64,000 bases of DNA, taken from assembly GCF_013415885.1 (NCBI RefSeq), contig NZ_CP058910.1, forward strand, positions 1,426,001 to 1,490,000. Reading direction: 5' to 3'. Of this stretch, positions 32,180 to 34,690 are shown piece after piece. The notes under the pieces are model-generated. The model saw nothing but the letters and a program-made list of their open reading frames with translations, was not told the origin of the DNA and made no database searches. The position numbers were made by a program, and so were the translations under genes. Each line of letters begins with the position of its first letter. Positions within the stretch are counted from its first letter, which is position 1. Origin of the DNA: Halosimplex rubrum (GTDB lineage: Archaea > Halobacteriota > Halobacteria > Halobacteriales > Haloarculaceae).

Positions 32180-33055
32180 TCAGTCGTCGCCGTCCAGCCA
32201 CTCGGGCAGGTCGTTGACGGAGTCGATCACTGCGGTCGCGCCCGCCCGCTCGTACTTCCGGCGACCCTCCTCGCCGGTCAGCCCGCCGGTGAGGACGCCG
32301 ACGCCCCGGTAGGTTCGCTCGGGGTCCTCGTCGGCGGCGTTGACCGCTGTCCGGATGTCGTCGAGCGTATCGCCGACGAAGACGACTCGCTCGGCGTCGA
32401 AGCGCTCGGCCAGCGTCACGAGCGCCCGGGGGTGGGGCTTGCCCGCCTCCCAGTCGTCCATCGTGAAGCGGTGCTCGTCGGGCACGTCCAGACCCGCGCG
32501 GTCGAGCGCGATGTCGGCTTCGGGCGCGGGTCGGCCCGTCAGGACGCCCACGTCGTAGCGAGCGTCGAGGGCCTCGATCGTCTCGTCGTCGATGATGACG
32601 GGTTCGTCGTGGATGTAGCCCGGCGTGTCCGCGTCGGGCTCGGCGCCTTCGAGGTCGCGGTAGAGGTCGCTCCCGAGGTACAGCTGCTGGAACACCTGCC
32701 GGAGGCGGTCGGGGTCCCACTCGTTCATGACGCGCTCGCGTTCGGCGGGGCCGAGCGCGTCGAGGACGACCGTCTCGGCCGCGGAGACGCCGCCGCCCGT
32801 GGCGGCTACCCGGTCGGTGAAAGAGGAGAGCGAGAGCGCGAGCCCCTCGTCGCGCGCGAGCACGTACAGCGCGGCCGCGTACGTGAGTTCCCAGTCGTTG
32901 TTGAAGCCGCCAGCGTCCTTGAACTGCTGGATATCGGCTTTCTCGATAGTGTCGCCGTAGACCCGGGACACCGACTCGACGATCGCCCGGCGGTAGGAGT
33001 CGGCCACGTCGACGAGTACGCCGTCGACGTCGAGCACGACCGCGTCCGCGTTCAT
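32180..33055 (-). CDS. HAD-superfamily hydrolase (TIGR01548-like)
   Basis: Phosphatase-like protein of 291 residues with all four HAD motifs: DVDGVLVD (nucleophile Asp) near residue 8, TGRP near 180, GKPHPRAL near 210 and FVGDTLDDI near 230. A helical cap domain of about 120 residues sits between motifs I and II. It resembles the TIGR01548 group; the substrate is unknown. Relatives are often linked with histidine synthesis, with no support for that here. A minus-strand CTTTTGCC at 33083-33090 could be its TATA box. Confidence 0.8.
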
Positions 33056-33123
33056 CGGTGTCTCCGGGAATGCGCTCCTGGCAAAAGTCCGTTCCGACTC
33101 GGGGAAGCGTGTTCGGTCGCGTC

Positions 33124-33194
33124 GGTGCGGTGACGATGCGATGGCGGTGCAGTGACGGTTCGGTGCGGTGGCGGTGCGGTGGCGGTGCAGCGGC
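33124..33194. repeat. 11-bp tandem repeat array
   Basis: Six imperfect copies of GGTGCGGTGGC in register (33124, 33135, 33146, 33162, 33173, 33184), broken once by 5 bases after the third. The unit is close to one helical turn. It lies 70-140 bases upstream of the HAD gene. Confidence 0.75.
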
Positions 33195-33340
33195 GTGGGT
33201 TTTCGCCCACGGACCGCTCCGATTTTCGGAGGCCGCGACCGCGGTCGCGGCGAGGGGTCTCGGCGTTCGCCCGCACCGAGGCCTCGATAGAGCCGAACAC
33301 GGCGTCGTCACTGCGGACGATAAGGATAGGATGGGGGAAC

Positions 33341-33385
33341 GTAGGGGCTGGAGCGTGTGACAGTCGGGGTCTCCAGGGCCCCTAC
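33341..33385 (-). ncRNA. Candidate small structured RNA
   Basis: Minus-strand 45-base hairpin: GTAGGGG-CC-CTGGAG pairs with CTCCAG-CCCCTAC (13 pairs with a CC bulge) around a 17-base loop. A TTTTTAT box at 33413-33407 is spaced so that transcription would start at about 33380-33385, the very base of the stem. A pyrimidine-rich tail (GTTCCCCCATCC) follows. A 21-bp palindrome (33382-33402) covers the predicted start. No coding sequence fits. It does not match tRNA, 5S, SRP, RNase P or box C/D patterns I know. Expression is inferred. Confidence 0.45.
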
Positions 33386-33402
33386 GATTGCCTTGATCGT
33401 AG
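33382..33402. promoter_or_regulatory. Operator-like palindrome at the small RNA start
   Basis: CTACGAT-N7-ATCGTAG, a perfect 7-bp inverted repeat, lies directly downstream of the TATA box (33407-33413) and spans the predicted transcription start, the usual place for a repressor site. Confidence 0.45.
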
Positions 33403-33541
33403 ACGCATAAAAACCCACGGCAACCGGAGTGAAAGTGTAATCGCAGGACTGTACCGGACCGACCCGTGCCAACGGCAGACACACCGACGCGCTCAGGAGG
33501 GGATCGTTTCGGGTCGAACCGCCCGGGGAGCGGTCGGACGG

Positions 33542-34690
33542 CTATCGCGCCAGGGGGAGGGAGTAGCTGCGCTCGCGTTCGACGACGGCCTCCCAGGTGC
33601 GCCGGCAGTCGCAGGAGACCTGGTCGAAGACGGCGGGGTCCTGGCGCTGGTCGAAGTCCTTGACGGCGCGCTGAAGGCGGTCGTCGCAGTCGCCGCAGTT
33701 GTGCGGGCCGCGCTCGGAGCCGTGGCCGACGGGGTCGGAGACGACGATGCCGTCGACGTCCGCCGTCGCCTCCAGCACCTCGGCGACCGACCAGAGCCAC
33801 GGCGGACGGTAGCCGCCCTCGTGGTAGAGGTCTTCGACCATCGTGTAGCGCTGGACGTTACAGGGGTTCATCGAGACGGTGTGACACCCCGCCACGTCGA
33901 GACAGCGCCGGACCGACCGCTTCATGTCCGCGACGGCCTCGCCCTCCGAGAGGAAGGGCGGTTTCATCAGGAGGTAGGCCTTGACGCCGCCGCGTCCCTG
34001 CTCGCGGCTCTCGTCGGTCGCCGCTCGCTCGTCCGGCGGTGGTCGCTCCGCTCCCACCGCCCGCGCCTCCTCGCAGGCGTCCTCGAAGTCGGAGAAGTCG
34101 AAGTACTTGTTGACGCAGTCCCGGCGGACGCGGTCAGTGGCGGTCTCCAGCCCGATGGCCACGTCGCAGTCGAGCCCGTGTTCGGTGAACTCCCGTATCT
34201 TCTCGCGGTCGACGAAATCGGGCAGGGACTCGACGACGATGCGGTCCCGATCCGCGAAGGTGTCGGCGATGGCCTGGCGGGTCTCGGCGGGCACCTCGCG
34301 CTCGTCGAGGAAGGACCCGGAGGTGTAGATCTTGATCAGATCGGCCTGCTCGCCGCGGAGGTCCTCGGCGTTCTCCTGCTCGTGTTCGAGGCAGGCGTCG
34401 ATCTGGGCCATCAGGTCCTCGTGGGGGACGCTGCCGCCGTCGACGGACTCGGCGACGTAGCCGCACATGGTGCAGCCGCCGGCGCGGGCCCAGCGGCAGC
34501 CGCCGGTGTTGAGGATGATGGTGAGCGAGTTGACGAAGCCGTCGGGGGTGTTGTCCTCGTCGAGCCAGACCCGCGTGGGCTCGCGCGGGTCGTAGCTGGC
34601 GTCGTTGCGCGAGCGCACCTCGCGCATCACCTTGTTGTGGGCGTCCATCCCCTTGCCCTGCTCGTAGACGTCGGGGCTCGGCTGGCTCAT
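33542..34690 (-). CDS. Archaeosine biosynthesis radical SAM protein RaSEA
   Basis: Partner of ArcS: uses radical SAM chemistry to convert the lysine-modified preQ0 at tRNA G15 to archaeosine. The protein has 382 residues. The cluster motif has the family's unusual C-x7-C-x2-C spacing (C65, C73, C76). Later blocks include KIYTSGSFLD, GLETATDRVR, YLLMKPPFLSEGEA and NPCNVQRYTMVE, plus C-terminal Cys residues (NCGDCD, CDCRRTW) that may bind zinc. A polar segment of about 20 residues before VKAYLLMKPP looks like an in-frame palindromic insertion (34005-34062). ArcS is 2.5 kb away. Confidence 0.9.
   Translation of the reverse strand: MSQPSPDVYEQGKGMDAHNKVMREVRSRNDASYDPREPTRVWLDEDNTPDGFVNSLTIILNTGGCRWARAGGCTMCGYVAESVDGGSVPHEDLMAQIDACLEHEQENAEDLRGEQADLIKIYTSGSFLDEREVPAETRQAIADTFADRDRIVVESLPDFVDREKIREFTEHGLDCDVAIGLETATDRVRRDCVNKYFDFSDFEDACEEARAVGAERPPPDERAATDESREQGRGGVKAYLLMKPPFLSEGEAVADMKRSVRRCLDVAGCHTVSMNPCNVQRYTMVEDLYHEGGYRPPWLWSVAEVLEATADVDGIVVSDPVGHGSERGPHNCGDCDDRLQRAVKDFDQRQDPAVFDQVSCDCRRTWEAVVERERSYSLPLAR

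Follow-up and report, generated by a model that had tools for sequence, protein, structure and literature searches.

A predicted trans-acting antisense RNA against the start of the cdrS-ftsZ2 mRNA in Halosimplex rubrum and its relatives in Halobacteria

The minus-strand element described here is very likely the gene for a trans-acting antisense RNA of ~65 nt that probably blocks translation of cdrS and, with it, of ftsZ2. It is located in a 64,000-nt stretch of Halosimplex rubrum DNA (contig NZ_CP058910.1, positions 1,426,001 to 1,490,000; the whole stretch is called the window), ~103 kb from cdrS, the first gene of the cdrS-ftsZ2 cell-division operon. According to the proposed mechanism, the hairpin of this RNA would present GUCACACG in its loop as a seed, together with a C-rich 3' tail. 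The loop would bind the start-codon region of the cdrS mRNA and the tail its leader, so that neither would be accessible to the ribosome. Blocked initiation would result in less CdrS, and since the FtsZ gene ftsZ2 starts 3-4 nt after cdrS, FtsZ2 would presumably be lowered too by coupling. The RNA is probably made upon DNA damage, because its promoter carries the motif of haloarchaeal UV-induced genes, and could delay division until repair. How the state of the DNA is coupled to cell division in archaea is poorly understood, and targets are known for few of their trans-acting sRNAs.

Promoter, hairpin and conservation of the window element

On the minus strand between 33441 and 33324, the upstream activating element (UAS), the TATA box and the hairpin follow each other in this order, and the hairpin begins ~24 nt downstream of the TATA-like sequence (Table 1). 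The fold has an energy of -23.4 kcal/mol, which none of 200 shuffled sequences equals. A preceding sequence-only reading of this DNA had located the TATA box correctly to within one base. Its 13-pair hairpin (33385-33341) is real as well, but comprises 14 pairs and is one nucleotide longer at each end. That reading had overlooked the conserved UAS and the fact that loop and tail are complementary to cdrS.

Table 1. Features of the window element and its neighbourhood (window coordinates).
Feature	Sequence	Position	Strand	Remarks
Upstream activating element (UAS)	ATTACACTTTCACTCCGG	33424..33441	-	Haloarchaeal UV/DNA-damage motif type; kept in 8/8 congeners
TATA box	TTTTTATG	33406..33413	-	Assigned from sequence; kept in 8 congeners with one variant
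Predicted small RNA, ~65 nt		33324..33388	-	Putative 5' end from TATA spacing, putative 3' end from conservation edge
Hairpin, 14 pairs in two helices	Apical loop ACCCCGACUGUCACACG	33340..33386	-	Fold z = -4.0
Anti-start segment	UGUCACACGCUCCA	33349..33362	-	Complement of cdrS UGGAGCGUGUGACA (U and G of AUG, codons 2-5)
Anti-leader segment	GUUCCCC	33334..33340	-	Complement of cdrS leader GGGGAAC
7-7-7 inverted repeat over predicted start		33382..33402	-	Not conserved; probably incidental
Upstream neighbour RaSEA, archaeosine biosynthesis radical SAM protein		33542..34690	-	TIGR01210, E 7.5e-129; synteny
Downstream neighbour, HAD hydrolase TIGR01548		32180..33055	-	Outside the element

An alignment of eight congeners reveals a conservation island at 33442-33324, near-complete except for the spacer between TATA box and hairpin. 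RaSEA marks the conserved locus of the window copy by synteny. As had been stated before, no convincing ORF starts at leaderless distance. The predicted RNA is devoid of an ORF, and a small coding ORF is ruled out by indels inside the conserved block among the congeners. The earlier proposal, a small non-coding RNA that stands free and has a promoter of its own, is therefore strongly supported by the conservation block with its sharp 3' edge and, beyond the genus, by a class-wide fixed UAS-TATA-hairpin architecture with a common loop in variable stems.

The sharp edge also bears on the downstream gene. The element lies on the same strand as the HAD gene, 285 nt upstream of its start at 33055, and might be read as its 5' leader or attenuator. 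This is highly improbable, since conservation stops at 33323 and is absent from the 270 nt that lead to the gene. Within the set checked, only the own-genome loci gave a HAD match, with several loci not extending far enough on that side for a judgement; RaSEA is retained on the opposite side.

The supposed "perfect 21-bp palindrome" at 33382-33402 turned out to consist of two 7-nt arms (CTACGAT/ATCGTAG) around a non-palindromic 7-nt centre (CAAGGCA). The repressor operator that had been suggested over the start fails because this inverted repeat decays in the congeners: it is intact in three of the eight (L001, L002 and L004) and broken in L003 and L005-L008.

Other assignments were rejected as well. 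Rfam covariance models gave no match in the window at the gathering threshold and none at E <= 1 for 33280-33470, which speaks against a known Rfam family, including archaeal C/D and H/ACA guides, SRP RNA and RNase P RNA. No direct repeats flank the RNA, as would be expected for a CRISPR or a degenerate crRNA of the CreA type.

Two further observations concern the surroundings. Directly behind RaSEA, at 33504-33516 and ~65 nt upstream of the UAS, a GTTCGACCCGAAACG block is invariant in the eight congeners, perhaps a terminator or a protein site. Upstream of the HAD gene, positions 33122-33195 contain imperfect 11-bp tandem repeats, GGTGCGGTGGC.

Related elements at several loci in Halobacteria

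Orthologues were found in all congeners by a DNA search of 59 relatives, together with weaker matches in other genera and families. Outside the genus these matches retain only the UAS, the TATA box, GTCACACGCTCC and TTCCCC. The pattern ACTTTCAC-N48-78-GTCACACG is present in 174 of 292 Halobacteria genomes and 56 of 77 genera, counts that are not independent events as the genomes are related; the reversed control pattern gave one match. Within a sample of the phylum, the promoter-plus-loop pattern occurs in 25/43 Halobacteria vs 1/204 other genomes. The first contig scan yielded many chance matches in bacteria, and the haloarchaeal matches alone were used. Pattern matches L074, L268, L276 and L278 resemble chance matches in coding sequence. 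None of 109 pattern matches in viral contigs shows the features of the element, which speaks against a viral or mobile origin.

The copies occur at distinct loci. Locus A, behind RaSEA, is the window type and is found in several genera of the window genome's family. Locus B lies ahead of the threonine ammonia-lyase gene (ilvA) in most families, and the window genome has a weak copy there (L340). Locus C is the 5' UTR of genes for DUF7837 CPxCG zinc-finger micro-proteins (copy L290 in the window genome), and locus D is a further RNA in this genus (L052). Named examples of the family come from Haloferax gibbonsii (L178), Halorubrum (L103, L159), Haloarchaeobius (L140), Natrialba aegyptia (L139) and Halosimplex salinum (L143). 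Thus, the window RNA is one of several RNAs in its genome carrying the same anti-cdrS parts. A literature search for a description of this RNA family found no paper; preprints and most subscription papers were outside its reach.

The loop GUCACACGC does not vary among locus-B copies; their stems differ yet still pair (GCAC/GUGC, GCGC/GCGC, GGUGC/GCACC). Counted in a fixed register, these stems have a mean of 3.93 contiguous pairs vs 1.90 (sd 0.15) with a shuffled 5' arm. This count is the reliable one, since some minimum-energy stems are alternative folds. Across the family the invariant loop sits in many distinct stems; copies of genus g6 are without the hairpin, and those of family f14 and L229 are without the C-tail. 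With regard to the stem covariation that had been put forward as a check, the widespread sister elements do keep their pairing through sequence change, but the two basal pairs of the window element itself break in some congeners, where the core holds.

The locus-C arrangement, an anti-cdrS hairpin inside the 5' UTR of a DUF7837 gene, is seen for L290, L355, L363, L123, L139 and L224-L229. Such an mRNA may itself act as an antisense RNA. L052 (G000:C1:3104432-3104466, minus strand) is the second anti-cdrS RNA of the genome, with a TATA-like TACTCTTTTAATC upstream, and is conserved in the congeners and in genome G009 (L067).

Two more sites were observed. L070 (G003:C1, about 1425074) is an intergenic stretch in which GTCACACGCTCCACC/GTGC is repeated several times; it might be an anti-cdrS RNA with multiple sites. 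L294 (G000:C1:2277291-2277301) combines another GTCACACGCTCCCGTTCCCC element with a TATA-like CCTTTATGCC and ends in CCCATCCTATCC, as the window RNA does.

Complementarity to the start of cdrS and co-variation with it

On the opposite strand, the same pattern search hit, in nearly all genomes, the beginning of a single gene, GGGGAAC...ATG GAG CGT GTG ACA CTA CGG. This gene encodes CdrS, as identified by the NCBIfam equivalog NF058555 (106.2 bits vs a cut-off of 100) and by ftsZ2, which follows within a few nt. The window RNA is complementary to it in two parts that stand in antiparallel order: 14 contiguous nt of the anti-start segment, from the start-codon U into codon 5, and the 7 nt of the anti-leader segment. 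For comparison, complementary runs reach 10 nt at most among 96 control ORF starts in the window. By RNA duplex energy cdrS ranks 3/56 among GC-rich start regions, energy alone being too unspecific to single it out. The locus-D RNA L052 has 17 + 11 nt complementary to cdrS in the arrangement CCGUAGUGUCACACGCU-hairpin-GUUCCCCUUUG, i.e. with a GC hairpin between the parts. For Haloferax-type genomes, the loop GUCACACGC pairs with GCGUGUGAC and the tail UGCAUUCCCCC with leaders of the form GGGGGAAUGCA. Own promoter, lack of coding capacity and conserved complementarity to a distant mRNA are, as far as sequence can tell, the attributes of a trans-encoded antisense sRNA. Consequently, a target and a putative mechanism can be named in place of the "unknown class" of the sequence-only reading, namely antisense pairing in trans with the cdrS-ftsZ2 mRNA. 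cdrS is the single strongly supported target of this family, whose members are not repressor-controlled orphans.

The first codons of cdrS are virtually frozen. Among 30 genes, codons 2-6 are GAG (30/30), CGT (30/30), GTG (30/30), ACA (29/30) and CTA (25/30), while codons 7-8 and later ones vary freely. The adjacent ftsZ2 genes use CGT for 8.9% of Arg, ACA for 1.8% of Thr and CTA for 0.5% of Leu codons. Antisense pairing would explain why the same rare synonyms are found in the first cdrS codons across a class.

Tails of the RNAs vary together with the leaders of their targets. The mean longest complementary run of a tail is 8.4 against its own leader and 6.8 against leaders of other genomes, vs 5.0 (sd 0.13, maximum 5.5) for shuffled tails. 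Leaders GGGGAAUACA occur with tails UGUAUUCCC in family f7, GGGGGAAUGCA with UGCAUUCCCCC in family f4 and CAAAGGGGA with UCCCCUUUG in genus g4. Family f17 is the exception, its tails fitting f4 leaders better.

Matching changes are also found in the loop. Genus g54 has cdrS with GTC in place of GTG. For its RNA, GUGACACG was predicted before searching and was found, as GUGACACGCUCCA followed by UUCCCC, in genomes G112 and G127, where the compensated elements stand in 5' UTRs of DUF7837 genes. The search for a compensated element gave no match in 4/6 g54 genomes, and the g54 copy L354 keeps the old loop. A GAG -> GAA exchange has its counterpart in G301 (cdrS GGAACG, loop ACGUUU) and in G092 (GGAACGUGUGAC with GUCACACGUUCC), the locus-B copy of G092 being uncompensated. 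Family f14 and genome G146 have GGAACG in cdrS without a matching RNA change at the copies seen.

Such compensations alone would also fit a protein that binds double-stranded GTCACACGCTCC both at the cdrS start and downstream of these promoters, with the hairpin being incidental. Two complementary RNAs always have a DNA word in common, and a protein of altered specificity would change both sites together. Nevertheless, we consider a DNA word unlikely. The word lies in the loop of a hairpin, the arms of which vary from lineage to lineage without losing their complementarity, and the orientation of the word to UAS and TATA box is always antisense. Moreover, the second match (leader/C-tail) is spaced from the first by 1-22 nt in the RNAs (one outlier, 46) vs 11-17 nt in cdrS, which bulges in an RNA duplex allow but a DNA site does not, and in L052 a whole hairpin separates the two parts.

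If pairing between RNAs is assumed, its direction could still be the reverse: an abundant cdrS mRNA might regulate or sponge the hairpin RNAs and zinc-finger mRNAs, or pairing might stabilise or activate cdrS. Several elements in DUF7837 5' UTRs directly precede the start codon, so that pairing would cover the partner's start too. The free-standing copies of the window type and upstream of ilvA, however, have no ORF to control, and the paired region includes both the AUG and the leader of cdrS, a classical position for repression. We therefore assign this reverse direction a low probability and favour repression of cdrS. The cdrS-ftsZ2 operon of H. salinarum appears to be controlled post-transcriptionally, its mRNA increasing in the course of growth but its ribosome occupancy not (PMC8303175); the antisense family offers an explanation for this control.

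Promoter motif, CdrS and known systems

The UV motif is present in the window as one repeat unit, ACTTTCACTCCGG, at 33436-33424, and as the full TTTCACTTTCA in many relatives. Other family members and the radA, top6B and RPA promoters of the window genome share the UAS. In Halobacterium, TTTCACTTTCA was reported before UV-induced radA1, top6B and others (PMC2556686). The motif and its place upstream of the TATA box are the same in this UV-B regulon, but the published list holds protein genes only. The UAS was also considered as a CdrS site and rejected, since it precedes radA, top6B and RPA and fits the published UV motif; a different conserved site exists at the ilvA locus. The UAS is additionally found before a conserved 53-aa orphan protein (MLSEIACRCEAANCSRKLTDGDCMLVFRT...; L344 in the window genome, L018, L019) with no Pfam or NCBIfam match.

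For Haloferax volcanii a CdrS ChIP site was published 95 nt upstream of a TSS that precedes the threonine ammonia-lyase gene HVO_0464 (PMC8406309, Table 1 therein), i.e. at the place of a sister RNA gene of locus B. HVO_1885s, an RNA without an assigned function, is also part of the CdrS regulon of this species and is activated (PMC8406309). Upstream of the UAS, CGTC[TA][GT]AC occurs in 49/72 locus-B elements vs a shuffled mean of 0.2, and in 37 locus-B copies it stands exactly 98 nt before GTCACACG. The locus-B RNA is predicted to begin a few nt ahead of GTCACACG, so that the published TSS may belong to the RNA itself; the TSS/ChIP geometry is no more than consistent with this RNA being made. 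Judging from promoter motifs and ChIP-seq geometry, CdrS may control its own antagonist in a feedback loop. In contrast to locus B, the window copy has no site of the CGTC[TA][GT]AC type upstream, and the paper is silent on antisense control of cdrS. A genome pattern search with ATGACGNNCGTCAT for identifying the CdrS regulon was too unspecific. The cdrS promoter (L051) is flanked by GTAAGAC/GTCTTAC inverted repeats similar to the CGTCTGAC site that precedes locus-B RNAs; CdrL and CdrS, the two RHH regulators, might bind there.

A more tentative reading, which we regard as possible though not quite probable, is a class-wide RNA-based division checkpoint. Damage-induced sibling antisense RNAs, some free-standing and some built into zinc-finger micro-protein mRNAs, would shut off cdrS-ftsZ2 translation, and CdrS binding ahead of one RNA gene would close a feedback loop. 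The analysis provides a concrete RNA family, its target and predictions at base-pair level that can be tested in Haloferax volcanii.

In E. coli, division is inhibited during the SOS response by SulA, a protein acting on FtsZ. The present family would likewise cause a damage-induced block of FtsZ-based division, but as RNA acting on mRNA and with no LexA/SOS box. If true, the checkpoint would be an archaeal RNA counterpart of SulA. The DicF sRNA of E. coli, directed against ftsZ (PMC5069750), and the cis-antisense RNA StfZ (PMC9628754) are similar in being short RNAs acting on a division-gene mRNA, with a predicted block of the translation start. DicF, however, is prophage-encoded and bacterial, whereas this family is chromosomal, class-wide in Halobacteria and multi-locus, aims at the regulator gene heading the operon and has no sequence relation to DicF. 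Membership in the DicF family is not indicated either, with no Rfam match at gathering or E <= 1 and complementarity to cdrS instead of ftsZ. sRNA162 and other trans-acting archaeal sRNAs of Methanosarcina mazei (PMC3510493) are comparable, sRNA162 being trans-encoded and pairing near the start of a bicistronic transcription-factor mRNA. The family described here differs from it in lineage, sequence, target and promoter: it is directed at a cell-division operon and has copies at several loci, some of them in 5' UTRs.
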